From contig JBFLYA010000256.1 of the NCBI GenBank assembly GCA_040757115.1, forward strand, positions 1-5,317: a stretch of DNA of 5,317 nucleotides, read 5' to 3'. The position numbers and the translations under genes were made by a program. The notes under the pieces were generated by a model. That model ran no database searches, had not been told where the DNA came from, and worked only from the letters and a program-made list of their open reading frames with translations. Positions 1 to 5,317 of this stretch are shown here, one piece after another. Each line of letters starts with the position of its first letter. The stretch's first letter is position 1. The stretch is from a bacterium. GTDB taxonomy: Bacteria; UBA9089; CG2-30-40-21; SBAY01.

Positions 1-10
1 CACAATCAAT

Positions 11-50
11 TTCTACCTATTTCTATAAATTTCAATCTATTTCTATTATC
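11..50. repeat. 10-bp periodic pyrimidine-rich array
   Basis: Four consecutive 10-bp units begin with TTC at 11, 21, 31 and 41 (TTCTACCTAT, TTCTATAAAT, TTCAATCTAT, TTCTATTATC). The 10-mer CTATTTCTAT occurs exactly at 17-26 and 37-46. The period is close to one helical turn, so the tracts would lie on one face of the DNA. This is seen directly in the sequence. Whether it is a decayed minisatellite or a curved-DNA element upstream of the promoter is not decidable here. The array may extend left beyond the window. Confidence 0.6.
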
Positions 51-93
51 TTATCTCCATATCACTCTTATCTCCTTATCCCCTTTCTTACAC
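51..93 (-). repeat. Left copy of GGAGATAA-unit repeat block
   Basis: Read on the minus strand this is GTGTAAGAAA followed by GGGGATAA, GGAGATAA, a 9-bp GAGTGATAT and GGAGATAA. The plus strand shows TTATCTCC at 51-58 and 68-75 and TTATCCCC at 76-83. The same block, in the same unit order (one leader, two 8-bp units, one 9-bp unit, one 8-bp unit), lies at 4974-5017 in the opposite orientation. The two are therefore diverged copies of one repeat family bracketing the operon. There is no coding potential, and the function is unknown. Confidence 0.7.
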
Positions 94-106
94 TTTTGAT
101 ATATAG

Positions 107-120
107 CCTGAACGGTTACA
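107..120 (+). repeat. 14-bp motif CCTGAACGGTTACA, copy 1
   Basis: CCTGAACGGTTACA recurs with one substitution (CCTGAACGATTACA) at 954-967, before the Hsp70 gene. Both copies are immediately followed by a homopolymeric A/T tract. Copy 1 ends 17 bp before the -35 box, which would place it where an upstream activator could bind. It could equally be a dispersed repeat: its core also resembles the CCTGAAAGGTT hairpins near the right end of the window. Confidence 0.5.
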
Positions 121-165
121 TTTTTTTAAAAAAATGCTTGACAAAATTTATTAATATGCTATTAT
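121..165 (+). promoter_or_regulatory. Sigma70-type promoter with UP-like tract, for the chaperone operon
   Basis: A perfect -35 hexamer TTGACA lies at 138-143. After a 16-bp spacer comes TATTAT at 160-165 (5 of 6 to the -10 consensus), preceded by TG at 157-158, which makes an extended -10. A run of seven T then seven A (121-134) sits directly upstream, where an UP element would be. A start near 172 would give a leader of about 190 nt before the first gene. No CIRCE element (TTAGCACTC and its inverted partner) and no sigma32-like -10 (CCCCAT) were seen, so heat-shock control, if present, is not of those kinds. Confidence 0.8.
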
Positions 166-278
166 ATAATCATAAAGGATTAGGAATTAAATTCCCCTTT
201 CAATTGTAGATAGGAATCAGAAAGAAGAGATATTGCTATATCTTATTGAAAATCAAATGCTTGTGCTAAATTTCGCCT

Positions 279-359
279 TTAAATAGAGGGGAAGTTCCAT
301 TACAATTTCCAATGCTATTTAACCATTCCTTCTAATGGCTAAATAGTTATGAAAGGAAT
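279..359 (+). promoter_or_regulatory. Candidate RNA switch in the operon leader with alternative folds over the SD
   Basis: Fold B is a local hairpin: CTATTTA (315-321) pairs with TAAATAG (340-346). After one A-C mismatch CCATT (323-327) pairs with AATGG (334-338), leaving a 6-nt loop at 328-333 and the ribosome binding site (GAAAGGA, 351-357) free. Fold A uses the same strand differently: TTAAATAG (279-286) pairs perfectly with CTATTTAA (315-322). This releases ATTCCTT (325-331) to pair perfectly with AAGGAAT (353-359), covering the Shine-Dalgarno. The folds exclude each other because both need 315-322 and 325-327. All pairings are read directly from the sequence. A regulatory role is inference, and AT-rich pairing by chance remains possible. 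It matches no riboswitch class I know. Confidence 0.45.
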
Positions 360-362
360 ATA

Positions 363-896
363 ATGTGGTCTAAGATAAAACGATTCTTTTTTACAGGAAG
401 TATTAAAGATAAGTTATCCGAGTTATCGAATGACATAAATTATAAGATTGGAAACTCTAAACACGAGATAATAGAAGAAGTAGGGGAGATAAAGAAAGCT
501 CTTCGTAAACAGGGGCTTTTTGTAGAGATGTTCAAAGAAGAGATTCTTGAACGGCTATCAGAAAAGGAATTTACCGAAAGAAAAGAGGATATCGAAAGGT
601 TTATTGATTTATCCGATGCCTTTTTCCATCTACAGGCAACTCTAACAGACAATCTTCCTTTGCAACAAACCTGGCTTGAAGTTATGGCTATTGTTCGGCA
701 AAAGATAGACTCTTTGCTTGAAACGGTTGGGCTGTCAATTGTATGTCAGACAGAGGTAGAATTTAACCCTTCCCTTCATAACGCTGTAGAGAGACTCTCT
801 CAAGATACTTCTCCTCTGCTGGTAGAAAGGGTTATTCAACCGGGCTATTTCTATAAACAGAAACTGATCCGACCAGCAAAGGTTGTGGTTAGATAA
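363..896 (+). CDS. grpE: GrpE-family nucleotide exchange factor (divergent)
   Basis: This is a cytoplasmic co-chaperone expected to release ADP from the Hsp70 encoded next, resetting its cycle. The 177-residue product is close to GrpE length. Residues about 14-85 are charged and helical, as in the long GrpE dimerisation helix. Residues about 86-123 fit the short helices. From about 125 to the end is the beta-wing domain that contacts Hsp70: FNPSLHNAV at 134-142 corresponds to the family's F-D/N-P-x-x-H-x-A-V signature. The end, with PGY at 160-162 and RPAKVVV at 170-176, matches the usual GrpE C-terminus. The N-terminal half is poorly conserved, so this is not a typical housekeeping GrpE. The start is supported by GAAAGGA 5 nt upstream. 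It is the first gene after the promoter, and its SD lies in the possible RNA switch. The stop is followed by a 93-bp gap. Confidence 0.88.
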   Translation: MWSKIKRFFFTGSIKDKLSELSNDINYKIGNSKHEIIEEVGEIKKALRKQGLFVEMFKEEILERLSEKEFTERKEDIERFIDLSDAFFHLQATLTDNLPLQQTWLEVMAIVRQKIDSLLETVGLSIVCQTEVEFNPSLHNAVERLSQDTSPLLVERVIQPGYFYKQKLIRPAKVVVR

Positions 897-911
897 TTTG
901 TAAGTATTCAG

Positions 912-952
912 AGTGTAATATAAGGAAAGAGGTTATTTTTCCTATTTACACT
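912..952 (+). promoter_or_regulatory. Long intergenic hairpin between grpE-like and Hsp70 genes
   Basis: AGTGTAA (912-918) pairs with TTACACT (946-952). After a small internal loop AGGAAA (923-928) pairs with TTTCCT (938-943), extendable by a G-U and an A-U pair to a 5-nt loop. No T tract follows (the next bases are ACCTGAAC), so it is not a standard intrinsic terminator. It may be an mRNA processing or stability element setting the ratio of GrpE to Hsp70, or a weak attenuator. The pairing is seen directly; the role is inferred. Confidence 0.55.
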
Positions 953-953
953 A

Positions 954-967
954 CCTGAACGATTACA
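954..967 (+). repeat. 14-bp motif CCTGAACGATTACA, copy 2
   Basis: It matches 13 of 14 positions of the motif at 107-120. It begins 2 nt after the hairpin ending at 952 and is followed by an A7 run and the Hsp70 ribosome binding site. No convincing -35/-10 pair was found between here and the gene, so it is not clearly part of a second promoter. Confidence 0.5.
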
Positions 968-974
968 AAAAAAC

Positions 975-982
975 AAGGAGGG
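975..982 (+). promoter_or_regulatory. Strong Shine-Dalgarno site of the Hsp70 gene
   Basis: AAGGAGGG, containing the full AGGAGG core, lies 7 nt before the ATG at 990. It decides that start over the internal ATG at 1002 (Met5). It is much stronger than the sites of the other three genes, suggesting that the Hsp70 is made in excess of its exchange factor. Confidence 0.85.
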
Positions 983-989
983 ATATTTT

Positions 990-2708
990 ATGAAAGAACC
1001 AATGTGTGGGATAGATCTGGGGACTACAAATTCTTGCATTGCTTATCTTAAAGACGGGAAATCTGTTCCCATAGAGATTGAAGATGGTCTGGCAATTGTT
1101 CCATCAGTAGTCAGTCTTGATGAAGCAACAGGCCATATATTCGTTGGAAAACAAGCCAAAAATAGACTTATGGCATTTCCGGGAGCTACAGTCAGGTCAA
1201 TAAAGCGTCAGATGGGAAAGGAGATAAAGGTATCCATTGGCGCAAAATCCTTTTCCCCTGAAGAAATATCTTCTTTTATCCTTAAATACTTAGTTGATAA
1301 GGCATCTGCTAAACTTGGCCAGGATATTAAAAAGGTAGTAATTACGGTGCCGGCATATTTTAATGATGCCCAGCGTCGTGCAACTATATCTGCTGGAGAA
1401 TTAGCAGGGCTTGAGGTACTGAGGATAATTAATGAACCTACCGCCGCCTCCCTTGTTTATGACTATGTATCCTTTATTGAAAAGGTAGAAAGCCCATATA
1501 TCATGGTCTATGACCTTGGTGGTGGCACATTCGATGTCTCCATCCTTGAGATAAAAGGAGAAATTAAGGAAGTGCTTGCATCTTGTGGAGATACTGCTCT
1601 GGGTGGGGATGACTTTGATGAAAGGTTGGTAGCCTACTTTCTCGCTCAGATAAGGAGAAAAACCGGGCTTGAACTATCGGATACCAACCTCCCCTGGCAT
1701 ATCAGGTTGAAGGAAATAGCAGAAAAAACCAAAATCGCATTATCGGATAGCCCTTATGTCACTGTTCAGGAGGTAGCTGTAGCAATTGTCAATGGAGAAC
1801 CTGTAAATCTCGATATTGAGGTGAGCCGTAAGGAATATGAAGAGATGATAAGTGACCTTGTTGATAAAACGATTGTAAAGGTCAATGAGGCAATAAGTGA
1901 GGCACACCTTTCAATTGATGCTATTGGAGAGGTTTTACTTGTTGGTGGAGCGACTCGAACTCCGCTTATCCAGGAAAGATTGTCCGAAATATTTAAGAGA
2001 CCAATCTATCACTCTGTTGACCCTGACCTTTGCGTGGGATTAGGTGCGGCTGTCCAGAACGGCCTTATAGCAGGAGAAGATGTCGGTCATATCCTCCTCG
2101 ATGTTACAGCCCATTCTTTAGGGGTAAAGACGGCGGATGATTTTTGTGAGACAACGGGAGAAGCGAACTATTTTTCCACTATCATCCGTAGAAATACCAA
2201 AATACCCGTCAGGAAGTCTGATGTCTATTTTACCATGGTTGACGAACAGGAAGTTGTAAGGGTAGAGGTATATCAGGGTGAAAGCCAGTCATGTAAAGAA
2301 AACTCTCGGGTAGGGAAATTTATCTTCGAACTCAAGCCTGCACCTGCTGATTCACCAGTAATTACAGAATTTGCTTATGACAAAGAAGGTCTTGTGCATA
2401 TAACTGTGGAACAAAAAGGCTACAATAATAAGAAAACAGTCACGCTGAATGTCCGTAGTAAAGAGATAGTTGACAGACAGGGAAAAGAAGAAAAGCAAGA
2501 AATACTGAATTATATATTACAAAAGGCTCGAAGACTAATGAAAGATGAAAAATTGCCTGCTAACTTAAGAAAGGAGATTGAACTTCTGGGGAATGATTAT
2601 GAAGATGCACTTAGAAGCGGTGGCGATAAAATGATAGATGACCTGGAAGATAACCTTCTGAATAAAATAGAAAAGGCTGAAGAAAGGCTTACTGAAGATA
2701 ATGAATAA
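990..2708 (+). CDS. dnaK: Hsp70 family chaperone, HscC-like short DnaK
   Basis: This is an ATP-driven cytoplasmic chaperone that binds and releases unfolded segments. The nucleotide-binding domain (residues about 5-363) shows the phosphate-1 loop GIDLGTTNS (7-15), Lys72 in SIKRQMG at the place of the catalytic lysine, VPAYFNDAQRR (120-130), INEPTAA (147-153), phosphate-2 DLGGGTFDVS (175-184) and the adenosine motif LLVGGATRTPL (316-326). The linker ILLDV (368-372) and J-docking positions Arg145, Asn148, Thr151 and Asp371 are kept. The beta substrate domain covers about 372-500. The alpha lid is short, and the C-terminus lacks the acidic EEV-type tail. At 572 residues it is well below the roughly 640 of housekeeping DnaK and near E. 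coli HscC (about 556). DVTAHSLGV and VEVYQGES also resemble HscC, from memory of that family. It overlaps the next gene by 8 nt. Confidence 0.95.
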   Translation: MKEPMCGIDLGTTNSCIAYLKDGKSVPIEIEDGLAIVPSVVSLDEATGHIFVGKQAKNRLMAFPGATVRSIKRQMGKEIKVSIGAKSFSPEEISSFILKYLVDKASAKLGQDIKKVVITVPAYFNDAQRRATISAGELAGLEVLRIINEPTAASLVYDYVSFIEKVESPYIMVYDLGGGTFDVSILEIKGEIKEVLASCGDTALGGDDFDERLVAYFLAQIRRKTGLELSDTNLPWHIRLKEIAEKTKIALSDSPYVTVQEVAVAIVNGEPVNLDIEVSRKEYEEMISDLVDKTIVKVNEAISEAHLSIDAIGEVLLVGGATRTPLIQERLSEIFKRPIYHSVDPDLCVGLGAAVQNGLIAGEDVGHILLDVTAHSLGVKTADDFCETTGEANYFSTIIRRNTKIPVRKSDVYFTMVDEQEVVRVEVYQGESQSCKENSRVGKFIFELKPAPADSPVITEFAYDKEGLVHITVEQKGYNNKKTVTLNVRSKEIVDRQGKEEKQEILNYILQKARRLMKDEKLPANLRKEIELLGNDYEDALRSGGDKMIDDLEDNLLNKIEKAEERLTEDNE

Positions 2709-4638
2709 AGGACAACGAAGACGGTTACAAAAGGAAAGGGGAAAACTTCTCTCATCAGGACATTACTGGGAGTGGCTTCAGTCTCTGGAGAAAACAGGTT
2801 ACCGTGAGTTTCTTCCTAAAGAGTGGAAAGAGGTATGGAGTATGCTGGCCAGGCGAGCAGTGCGTCTCCCTGCCAGTCTAAACGAATTCTTCAAGAATAT
2901 TCAGAGAATCAGCCGTTATCCTGAGCTGATGGAGATTAAATTCCTTCTCCTGTTGAAGGATTTTATCGAAAAGGATATATCAGCAGATGCATTCTCCCAG
3001 ATAAAAGGGCTCCCTTTTCCTGCAGAAGAAATCCGCAAAAAAGTAATCACCTGGAACGACCGCCTTTTTGAAGAAAAGAGATTTAGAGAACTCCTGACTA
3101 CCTTTGTAAGCCAACCAGATAAAGTGACAAAGGAGCACTTTTCAAAACTTGCCGCATTGACAGAAAAAACCTTATTATATTCGCCCATTCAAAGGCTTTC
3201 AGAATTCGTAGGGGAAAAGGGTGTATCAATAAGAAATTTAAGTGTCATTGACTCCCTCTTAAATCAACTCTCCGAAGAGCTCCCGTCTCCCCTTCAGCAA
3301 CTCCTTTTCTGTCCTTATCTATATTACATAAATAATTATCTCCAGGATATTGTAGAACACGGCGACTATATGAGACTGGCAGAGATTGTTTCTGACATTC
3401 CTTTTATCTTTCCTTTGATTACGGGTAAAAAAACAGAAAAGGCATTAGCCAAACTTGCAGAGATTAACCTTGAGACAATGGATGATACCTTTCTATCACG
3501 GAAAGTATTGGAGGCGACATTAGAAGAGAAAGTAACACTTATAGCCAATATGCGACATTTAATAAAGGATGAATATTTGGAAGAGAAATATTTACCTTAC
3601 CTGAGGACACTTTACCAGGGGCTTTTGAGGGATATAGTTAAAAAGAAGCCATCTCTCTCTGAACGGGAACGGAGAGAACTCCCAAAGATTATGGGGCGTA
3701 TCCTGCAGAACGATATCCATTTCTTGTATAGAACCACAAATGAATTGACTGACATCCTGAGTTTAATTAGCAAAAGTGGCTGTTTAGATACAAGACTTGC
3801 CCTTCTCTCACTTATCTCTGCTGAAATGAATAGGGACAAAAACCTCAAACAAGAGGCAGAATCTGTTCTAAAAGGGGTGTCCAATATAACTAAGGAAGAT
3901 ATCAGGTGGCTTTTTGAAAAAAGCCCTGCACCTATCTACCCCTATGTCAGCACATTAAAACCATTGATTGAACTTTATGGAAAGGAAGAGGCTATTACGA
4001 AAGAGATTCATGCCCATCTTTTTTCTTTGATTCAAAAGTCTCTTTTCAGGAGTTCTGCAATAAAAGAGTCTCAAAGACTTCTTCCCTCCTTTCTAACCAG
4101 AGATGAGTTATATGAGCTCAAGGAGGAATTCTCCGTCCTGAGAGAAGAATTTTTGCTTCTTAAAGGATATCCGCAATTTTTACTGTTGTCAGAGTATCTC
4201 TCTTGTTTTCCAGACAATTTTTTTACAGGGGAGGGATACTACAAATATCTCAATCTTGTTTATAGTAAAAAAGGGATTATCGGCATAATTGATATATATG
4301 AAGATATTTCAAGGGTATCGATGGAGACAAAAGATGTCGGTTTCCCACCTTTTTCCTCTGTATCACATATCGTAGATTCACAACACATGATTTGCAACAG
4401 CGTTTTAAAGGAGCATATATCAGACCTGAATACAGTTAAACTGGAAGAACTTCAAAGGATTTATAACATTATTAATTCTATGGAAAAAGTTAACAGTGAT
4501 TTATTGATACGATTCAATAATGTGCTGAATTATCGGTATAACAAGGGAGAGAAAGAGGTTGAAGTGCTGAAAGATGCTGTCTATAATATGTTGAGGCAAT
4601 TAAATAAGAAAGATAAAAAAAGGAAGAAGAAAAGATGA
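2701..4638 (+). CDS. Unknown 645-residue helical protein coupled to Hsp70 and J genes
   Basis: I do not recognise a family. The protein is rich in Leu, Glu and Lys and reads as successive amphipathic helices throughout, like an alpha-solenoid, but I see no regular repeat consensus, signal peptide, membrane segment or catalytic motif. Both ends are strongly basic: residues 3-15 include QRRRLQKERGK, and the last ten are mostly Lys and Arg (KKDKKRKKKR). This could suit binding to nucleic acid, the ribosome or an acidic partner (inference). Aromatic residues cluster near the N-terminus (H21-Y-W-E-W25). The ATG overlaps the Hsp70 stop by 8 nt and has only a weak upstream AAAGG, 13 nt away, so translation probably depends on coupling to the Hsp70. 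Its stop overlaps the J-protein start. Its place between Hsp70 and J protein suggests a dedicated co-chaperone, adaptor or client. Confidence 0.85.
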   Translation: MNKGQRRRLQKERGKLLSSGHYWEWLQSLEKTGYREFLPKEWKEVWSMLARRAVRLPASLNEFFKNIQRISRYPELMEIKFLLLLKDFIEKDISADAFSQIKGLPFPAEEIRKKVITWNDRLFEEKRFRELLTTFVSQPDKVTKEHFSKLAALTEKTLLYSPIQRLSEFVGEKGVSIRNLSVIDSLLNQLSEELPSPLQQLLFCPYLYYINNYLQDIVEHGDYMRLAEIVSDIPFIFPLITGKKTEKALAKLAEINLETMDDTFLSRKVLEATLEEKVTLIANMRHLIKDEYLEEKYLPYLRTLYQGLLRDIVKKKPSLSERERRELPKIMGRILQNDIHFLYRTTNELTDILSLISKSGCLDTRLALLSLISAEMNRDKNLKQEAESVLKGVSNITKEDIRWLFEKSPAPIYPYVSTLKPLIELYGKEEAITKEIHAHLFSLIQKSLFRSSAIKESQRLLPSFLTRDELYELKEEFSVLREEFLLLKGYPQFLLLSEYLSCFPDNFFTGEGYYKYLNLVYSKKGIIGIIDIYEDISRVSMETKDVGFPPFSSVSHIVDSQHMICNSVLKEHISDLNTVKLEELQRIYNIINSMEKVNSDLLIRFNNVLNYRYNKGEKEVEVLKDAVYNMLRQLNKKDKKRKKKR

Positions 4639-4967
4639 CAAAAGAAGAGGCATTAAAGGAACTGGGGTTAGAACCCTCTGCGGCAGGAGAGGAGATAGAG
4701 AAGACATACCATAAGCTTGTCAGACGCTATCCGCCGGAGTTTCATCCAGACAAATTCAGAAGGATTGATGAGGCATACCGTTTCCTAACATCTTTTTCAG
4801 CTATGCTTGAGCGTCTTTTGTCTTTTCAAACACAGTCGCATACTTTAGATAAGGAATTGTTCGCTTTTAATGTAGAACCGCCTGCCGGTATGATTGAAGA
4901 AGGGATAAAGGAATTAAAGAAGGCGATAAAAATGGCTCACTTATGGAATGTTGTTGATTCTCGATGA
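4635..4967 (+). CDS. Small J-domain protein with displaced HPD motif
   Basis: This is the likely J-protein partner that stimulates the operon's Hsp70 ATPase. Residues 3-54 fit a J domain: helix I EEALKELGL (4-12), helix II EEIEKTYHKLVRRY (19-32) and helix III FRRIDEAYRFL (41-51). The invariant HPD normally follows the Tyr ending helix II. Here that place is PPE (33-35), and an HPD tripeptide comes four residues later (37-39). Residues 55-110 are short, end in a charged helix, and lack the Gly/Phe and zinc-finger regions of DnaJ, so it is a minimal J protein. The ATGA overlap with the previous stop implies coupling. The purine-rich AAGGAAGAAG just upstream serves as SD while encoding the Lys-rich tail of the previous gene. 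From memory, small J-like proteins with YPPE in this place occur beside Hsp70 genes in other bacteria. Confidence 0.85.
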   Translation: MTKEEALKELGLEPSAAGEEIEKTYHKLVRRYPPEFHPDKFRRIDEAYRFLTSFSAMLERLLSFQTQSHTLDKELFAFNVEPPAGMIEEGIKELKKAIKMAHLWNVVDSR

Positions 4968-4973
4968 ATTTTG

Positions 4974-5017
4974 GTGTAAGAAAAGGAGATAAGGAGATAG
5001 GGAGATTATGGAGATTG
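4974..5017 (+). repeat. Right copy of GGAGATAA-unit repeat block
   Basis: GTGTAAGAAAA is followed by GGAGATAA (4985), GGAGATAG (4993), GGAGATTAT (5001) and GGAGATTG (5010). It begins 7 bp after the J gene stop. It aligns unit by unit, including the 9-bp third unit, with the reverse complement of 51-93, so it is an inverted copy of that block. Its transcript could pair weakly with ATCTTC at 5020-5025, but there is no T tract and it does not look like a terminator. Confidence 0.7.
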
Positions 5018-5049
5018 CCATCTTCATCCGTATCTCTCAAATAAAAAAA

Positions 5050-5067
5050 TTCGACCTGTGCGGTTAG
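5050..5067 (+). repeat. Left terminal inverted repeat of the palindromic element
   Basis: TTCGACCTGTGCGGTTAG is the exact reverse complement of 5299-5316. It is preceded by an A7 run and T. The match stops on both sides (5049 and 5068 do not extend it), so the repeat is exactly 18 bp. Confidence 0.9.
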
Positions 5068-5086
5068 AAATTACAAGTAAATTTCC

Positions 5087-5110
5087 TCAAACCTGAAAGG
5101 TTTGATTTTT
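5087..5110 (+). terminator. Hairpin A1 with T5 tract, candidate operon terminator
   Basis: TCAAACCT (5087-5094), loop GAA, AGGTTTGA (5098-5105) form a perfect 8-bp stem followed directly by TTTTT (5106-5110). It is the only structure after the J gene with both a stem and a T tract, so it is the best intrinsic terminator for the operon even though it belongs to the repeat element. The stem is only moderately GC-rich, so it may be leaky. Confidence 0.5.
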
Positions 5111-5116
5111 ACATAA

Positions 5117-5135
5117 CCGTAGATAAAATCTACGG
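5117..5135. repeat. Hairpin B1
   Basis: CCGTAGAT, loop AAA, ATCTACGG: a perfect 8-bp stem with a 3-nt loop. The same stem recurs at 5239-5257 with a different loop (TGC). This suggests that the stem, not the loop, is conserved. Confidence 0.8.
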
Positions 5136-5161
5136 AGAGAAGAAAATCTCCTGCTTACTAC

Positions 5162-5180
5162 TCAACCCTGAAAGGGTTGA
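5162..5180. repeat. Hairpin A2
   Basis: TCAACCCT, loop GAA, AGGGTTGA: a perfect 8-bp stem. It differs from A1 by A-T to C-G changes that keep pairing (compensatory differences on both arms). Confidence 0.8.
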
Positions 5181-5200
5181 ATTCTAACCATGGATTACAT

Positions 5201-5219
5201 TCGACCCTTTCAGGGTCGA
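5201..5219. repeat. Hairpin A2' (inverted type A)
   Basis: TCGACCCT, loop TTC, AGGGTCGA: a perfect 8-bp stem. The loop is the complement of the GAA loops on the left side. Relative to A2, one pair of the stem has changed on both arms (A-T to G-C). G then TTTT follows at 5220-5224. Confidence 0.8.
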
Positions 5220-5238
5220 GTTTTGCGGGCGTTTATTT

Positions 5239-5257
5239 CCGTAGATTGCATCTACGG
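5239..5257. repeat. Hairpin B2
   Basis: CCGTAGAT, loop TGC, ATCTACGG: a perfect 8-bp stem identical to B1 and placed symmetrically to it in the element. Confidence 0.8.
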
Positions 5258-5268
5258 TTATTTAAAAT

Positions 5269-5287
5269 TCGACGCTTTCAGCGTCAA
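5269..5287. repeat. Hairpin A1' (inverted type A)
   Basis: GACGCT (5271-5276), loop TTC, AGCGTC (5280-5285) form a 6-bp stem. A C-A mismatch and one further T-A pair extend it to 5269-5287. It is the mirror counterpart of A1, with compensated stem differences and a single unpaired position. Confidence 0.7.
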
Positions 5288-5298
5288 TAACCTAAAAC

Positions 5299-5316
5299 CT
5301 AACCGCACAGGTCGAA
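5299..5316 (-). repeat. Right terminal inverted repeat of the palindromic element
   Basis: CTAACCGCACAGGTCGAA is the exact reverse complement of 5050-5067. The window ends one base later, so the right flank of the element cannot be examined. Confidence 0.9.
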
Positions 5317-5317
5317 A

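Follow-up and report, generated by a model that had tools for sequence, protein, structure and literature searches.

What does a large protein of no recognizable family do when its gene is wedged between the genes for an Hsp70 and a J-domain protein? The question arises from a 5,317-nucleotide (nt) contig (JBFLYA010000256.1, positions 1 to 5,317 of the forward strand; hereafter the window) of a bacterial assembly (GCA_040757115.1; GTDB lineage UBA9089), in which four plus-strand genes encode a GrpE-like protein, an Hsp70, a 645-residue protein that we call X, and a short J protein. A first-pass annotation, made from the sequence alone, had cast X as a dedicated adaptor, co-chaperone or client of the Hsp70. 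Our data narrow this choice to an adaptor, because the slot that X occupies holds tetratricopeptide repeat (TPR) proteins in other bacteria: we put the probability at roughly 0.7 that X is a trans-acting adaptor (a scaffold or targeting subunit) of a dedicated four-component machine, GrpE-Hsp70-X-J. The most likely job of X is to direct this machine to its targets or to its site of action.

The X open reading frame (2701..4638, + strand, 645 codons) and its overlaps were exactly as first described. The stop of the Hsp70 gene (990..2708, +, 572 amino acids (aa); PF00012, 1.3e-130) falls within the start of X in an 8-nt overlap (ATGAATAA, 2701..2708, +), and the stop of X shares 4 nt (ATGA, 4635..4638, +) with the start of the J gene (4635..4967, +, 110 aa; PF00226, 1.2e-6). 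The operon begins with a GrpE-like nucleotide exchange factor (363..896, +, 177 aa) that scores well above the Pfam cutoff for GrpE (PF01025, 1.2e-14; 54.7 bits versus 25.8). At the composition of the window, the chance of a 645-codon open frame is about 4e-21, and the gene looks to be under constraint: the copy in a congener (G001) is 98% identical over 312 aa, with a dN/dS of about 0.23 that derives from 11 differences only. The contig (G000:C256) is the window itself, and the genomic neighborhood can be read within these 5,317 nt only. Since a separate canonical DnaK with an adjoining J-domain gene is encoded elsewhere in the genome (G000:C182), the window operon constitutes a second Hsp70 machine.

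Single-sequence searches with X returned nothing in genome contigs, viral contigs or plasmids. Among 61 relatives and 19 genomes of the phylum, only the congener carried it, on a contig that cuts the gene short; two weak matches within the phylum were attributable to chance (the one examined sits in a CTP synthase gene). Homologues were reached through the neighboring J gene, using a DNA pattern for J and not the sequence of X. The starting clue was a phylum-mate (G013, locus L026) with a related operon, TPR-J-GrpE-Hsp70, whose J protein likewise lacks the canonical His-Pro-Asp (HPD) motif. The pattern A/T-Y-x-x-L/M/I-V ... P-E-x5-F ... A-Y, in which PE was fixed and the preceding residue free, yielded at least 117 loci when run on 84,980 species genomes, while a stricter first pattern had matched the window only. 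Counts and generalizations about J-pattern loci here and below refer to the matches listed. Two of these loci carry X, and extension raised the number of carriers to four Nitrospirota genomes: Ca. Magnetobacterium casense MYR-1 (L134/L186), Nitrospirae nDJH8bin6 (L106/L185), nDJH13bin1 (L163/L195) and Ca. Magnetomicrobium cryptolimnococcus (L182/L192). Magnetobacterium and Magnetomicrobium are named magnetotactic genera.

The annotation had called for a survey of gene neighborhoods around homologues of X, and in this survey every complete homologue lay between an Hsp70 and a J gene, in a second phylum. The order GrpE-Hsp70-X-J is kept in 4/4 complete Nitrospirota loci, with a GrpE homologue first in every X operon; identities to the window proteins are 31–36% for X (full-length homologues), 51–56% for J, 64–65% for Hsp70 and 35–37% for GrpE. 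The 4-nt X/J overlap is kept in all four, and the 8-nt Hsp70/X overlap in three of them as well as in one decayed locus; the exception is L185, where the Hsp70 stops earlier and an 18-nt gap separates the genes. Apart from L185, the Hsp70/X junction consists of ATG, TTG or GTG followed by AATAA, encoding the last Glu and stop of the Hsp70 together with the MNK start of X. Both overlaps are consistent with coupled translation. In a fifth Nitrospirota genome (G629; L193, 7039-9669) the operon has decayed: the Hsp70 gene is broken into three fragments, X ends after 104 aa and J is absent, and the genes seem to have been lost together. X occurred in 4/295 Nitrospirota genomes, all in the operon and one of them decayed along with its Hsp70, and in two of 386 genomes spread across prokaryote phyla, both of the window's genus; neither set contained an X homologue apart from an Hsp70 gene, and X matched no family of unrelated function.

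The protein itself belongs to no recognized family, as first suspected: Pfam matches stayed below their cutoffs, and NCBIfam, PADLOC, PHROGs and PDB gave nothing significant. Assignment to the RNA-binding family PolyA_pol_RNAbd (PF12627) fell short (18.3 bits versus a cutoff of 22), with weak matches in 5/6 members of the X family (best E 4e-4). No TPR family reached its cutoff in the six members, the nearest being one weak TPR_TmcB match (E 0.34), and hydropathy revealed no membrane-spanning segment in the window protein (highest 19-residue value 1.2). An AlphaFold2 model built on a six-sequence alignment is helical over all 645 residues, with no strands (mean pLDDT 77.8, pTM 0.55), in line with the helical character predicted from the sequence alone. 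The closest structures, among them Naa15, Ski3 and karyopherins, are TPR and HEAT solenoids that match it weakly (best Foldseek E, 3.8e-3; VIA Z scores reaching 9.6, inside the range expected of helical models), and no match to X, or to a second slot family described below, stood out clearly from the helical-repeat background. The model appears solenoid-like, a judgement of shape given its six sequences, its pTM and the lack of a Foldseek match at E <= 0.001.

Both ends of X are basic, again as first noted. The N-terminal tail (MNKGQRRRLQKERGK, 2701..2745, +) carries a net charge of +6 over the first 15 residues and the C-terminal tail (4576..4635, +), which ends in KKDKKRKKKR, +9 in the last 20, compared with -5 for the middle. 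Conservation is uneven along the chain: in residues 1-129 (2701..3087, +), four or more of five homologues share the same residue at 66 of 129 positions, versus 120/516 in the remainder. This gradient would fit a shared docking part, for which residues 1-129 are our candidate, joined to a diversified target-binding part.

The slot ahead of J bears on the role of X. An Hsp70 gene is present in 82/117 J-pattern loci and a GrpE gene in 58/117, within a stretch of at most 8 kb. Where J stands alone as a gene, the preceding gene usually encodes a large TPR protein with a Lys/Arg-rich start; these proteins span 617–800 aa directly ahead of J, and a 4-nt TPR/J overlap is common. Loci from Acidobacteria (L105) and Planctomycetota (L181) show the order GrpE-Hsp70-TPR-J, that is, the window order with a TPR protein replacing X, and X therefore occupies the TPR slot. 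The order of the window's phylum-mate L026, TPR-J-GrpE-Hsp70, is a permutation of the same functions, and in Sumerlaeota/BRC1, cyanobacteria and Firmicutes the J-domain and TPRs are fused in one chain. Synergistota and some deltaproteobacterial metagenome-assembled genomes fill the slot, after Hsp70 or J, with another TPR-less family of 680–750 aa, whose model (that of the Synergistota family) is likewise all helical with a similar fold-search outcome. A Lys/Arg-rich start recurs in most slot proteins, X included. At least three families without demonstrable sequence kinship have thus filled the slot, although these families may share an ancestor from which they diverged rapidly.

Some of the fused forms carry further features. 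A SEC-C motif (CPCGSGKKYKxCC), of the kind seen at the SecA C-terminus, ends 22/62 J-fusion proteins, mostly in Firmicutes (including L068, L071, L075, L082, L110, L120 and L130), and some J-fusion proteins carry a membrane-like segment. The SEC-C end suggests that those fused Hsp70 machines may be targeted to the ribosome or the Sec pathway.

Several points weigh against an adaptor role for X. Its family is small, comprising the window's genus and five Nitrospirota loci. The fold model draws on six sequences, with the modest pTM and the Foldseek outcome given above. Homology between X and the TPR slot proteins, the Synergistota family or the proteins of L146, L083 and L132 was unsupported by hhalign with reversed and shuffled controls (probability ~1% or less, within shuffled controls), and the evidence for interaction is entirely genomic. 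What is observed here is the conserved operon with its order and overlaps, co-inheritance, positional equivalence to TPR proteins, the helical model and the conservation gradient; from these we infer physical binding, the direction of docking and the contacts of the basic tails.

What would such an adaptor serve? The J proteins of X operons, at 105–112 aa, consist in the window of a J-domain and a tail of about 45 residues without a client-binding domain; given this small size, client recognition must lie elsewhere. Their J loop is also unusual. All X operons have YPPE, and in the window P-P-E (4731..4739, +) replaces canonical H-P-D. The loss is general: among 99 readable J-domains the residue ahead of PE is P in 48, S in 29, D in 8, N in 5, T in 5 and R in 2, with histidine absent from 97 and present in two. 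The window J shares the PE and five-residue loop before F (PPEFHPDKF) with Escherichia coli DjlB/DjlC (HPETDPQGF), and at 110 aa lacks their large C-terminal region and tail anchor. A 2026 review holds HPE to be the only tolerated replacement of HPD (PMC13254874). J proteins are held to need H-P-D; most loci of the sampled PE-type J-domains show an Hsp70 gene.

The Hsp70 of the window had been called HscC-like, a label that holds in part. At 572 aa it is of HscC-type length (550–580 aa) and shares the nucleotide-binding domain deletion at DnaK 76–101, but it retains the GrpE-signature region (IVNGEPVNLD) where HscC is deleted. The Hsp70 tree places E. coli HscC elsewhere, in a separate five-row group (96/89), whereas the window protein falls in a clade with the other X-operon Hsp70s (100/99). 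The sister of this clade (100/100) is a Synergistota clade, and DnaK, HscA and HscC all lie apart from it. Retention of the GrpE-signature region is in keeping with the GrpE gene in the operon. The window Hsp70 keeps the J-contact residues R167, Q378, L391 and P419 (DnaK numbering) and has an acidic C-terminus; across the operon Hsp70s R167, Q378 and P419 are retained, L391 in nearly all, as are catalytic K70, E171 and T199.

Taken together, these features suggest a J protein split into two chains, a catalytic J and an adaptor X, serving an Hsp70 with its own exchange factor. The small J protein would trigger ATP hydrolysis by the Hsp70, which GrpE would then reset, while X, as an extended alpha-helical solenoid, would bind the client or the site where clients appear, the role played by the remainder of the chain in class C J proteins. 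Its conserved N-terminal part probably docks on the J tail and/or the Hsp70, and the divergent middle and C-terminal part, with the basic ends, probably binds the target. The basic tails may contact the ribosome or RNA, an acidic membrane, or the acidic tail of the Hsp70, though attraction between the last and the basic tails of X is speculation. The SEC-C and membrane-like segments of fused versions, together with the basic tails, point to the ribosome or a membrane; we hold no specific place of action to be more likely than not.

Could X instead be what the machine works on? HscA and HscB share an operon with their client IscU, and X, translated between Hsp70 and J, could similarly be an obligate client that the machine serves to fold or assemble. 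We regard this as unlikely: related operons hold unrelated TPR proteins in the slot or have TPRs fused to J, and family searches gave no sign of enzymatic function in X. A solenoid that can be exchanged for another and fused to J is not a client. The altered loop raises a different prospect, that the xPE J-domain is non-stimulating and that X and J form a holding complex that regulates or inhibits the Hsp70, as the pseudo-J protein Pam16 does for Pam18. In the systems tested, function is abolished when the H of HPD is replaced by Q or the D by N, and J-domain proteins in which HPD is altered are frequently assumed to be non-functional (PMC13254874; PMC8215388). However, DjlC tolerates HPE when working with HscC (PMC13254874; PMC8215388), and the short PE loop is also present in E. 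coli DjlB/DjlC. P-E is itself conserved, there is usually one J per operon, and the Hsp70s retain the J contacts at R167, Q378 and P419 and, in all but a few cases, at L391, all of which makes a regulator quite improbable in our view.

The patchy distribution of the operon (4/295 Nitrospirota) and its decay in one genome would suit a conflict system, anti-phage or otherwise, with Hsp70, X and J as sensor or executor, and some predicted conflict systems do include Hsp70 and GrpE along with J- or TPR-fused proteins (PMC7159879). X operons, however, matched no PADLOC family and contain no effector domain, and the genes next to them have housekeeping or unrelated roles and differ from locus to locus; we consider such a function very unlikely.

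Cooperation between an Hsp70, a J-domain and a solenoid is already known from DjlB/DjlC with HscC and from DnaJC7. The E. coli pair resembles the window in its short Hsp70 with the DnaK 76–101 deletion and in its J-domain PE and five-residue loop, and the K-12 hscC locus (L197, 571-8394) has two Sel1-repeat (solenoid-type) genes, ybeQ and ybeT, among djlB, djlC and hscC. DjlB and DjlC differ in being single chains of 475–483 aa, tail-anchored in the membrane (PMC8215388), with the J histidine kept; HscC differs in lacking the GrpE-signature region and an adjoining GrpE gene and in its place in the Hsp70 tree. In eukaryotic DnaJC7 and DnaJC3 a solenoid joined to the J-domain delivers clients to Hsp70 (PMC13254874), but these are single chains with canonical TPRs and HPD, and docking on EEVD is known for them. 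GTPase neighborhoods of the GAP1-N2 type also link Hsp70 and GrpE genes with a J- or TPR-fused protein (PMC7159879), though they center on the GTPase and FNIII-repeat proteins, none of which was seen next to X.

Also close are the TPR-J-GrpE-Hsp70 cassettes of Chloroflexi, Acidobacteria, Planctomycetota, Deferribacteres and others, which combine the same four functions and an xPE J with a large helical protein, basic at its start, whose gene lies directly ahead of J and in many cases overlaps it by 4 nt; they differ in the recognizable TPRs of the slot protein and usually in gene order. The Synergistota/deltaproteobacterial slot family (L177, L133, L116, L142, L200-L208) is like X in lacking TPRs, in its basic start and in its all-helical model, and unlike it in operon order (GrpE-J-Hsp70-slot) and in showing no significant profile similarity. 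It is about an even bet that the window exemplifies a widespread, as yet undescribed class of bacterial Hsp70 machine, with a short Hsp70, its own GrpE, an xPE J-domain that lacks the supposedly essential histidine, and a helical solenoid present as a separate chain or as a fusion. In such a class the TPR, X and Synergistota solenoids, though unrelated, would be interchangeable and would set the targets. We found no paper on the operon or the cassettes in the open-access literature, a search that did not extend to the specialized survey of J proteins in bacteria by Barriot et al. (2020; cited in PMC8215388), where prior notice of the cassettes is possible. Three things appear to be undescribed in that literature: the class of cassettes, the absence of the J histidine across this class, and the X family linked to it. 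The xPE operons allow a direct test, with purified proteins, of whether the J histidine is dispensable. They also form a natural swap set, one Hsp70-J core with different solenoids, for tracing the source of the target choice of an Hsp70 machine, and X, a clean family with a name, could serve in the first test of this kind.

Two features of the window lie outside the four genes. Upstream of the GrpE gene, a consensus scan matched a sigma-70-like promoter at 11/12 positions (138..165, +; TTGACA-16-TATTAT, with TG ahead of the second hexamer), which is suggestive only, as shuffled sequence gives such sites equally often. Beyond the J gene, positions 5050-5316 hold a 267-bp repeat resembling a miniature inverted-repeat transposable element; its terminal inverted repeats of 18 nt are perfect, and others are nested within it. 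Near-identical full-length copies (about 96–100%) occur at several other sites in the genome and in the congener, with related pieces at dozens more places, and this repeat is probably what caused the contig to end where it does.

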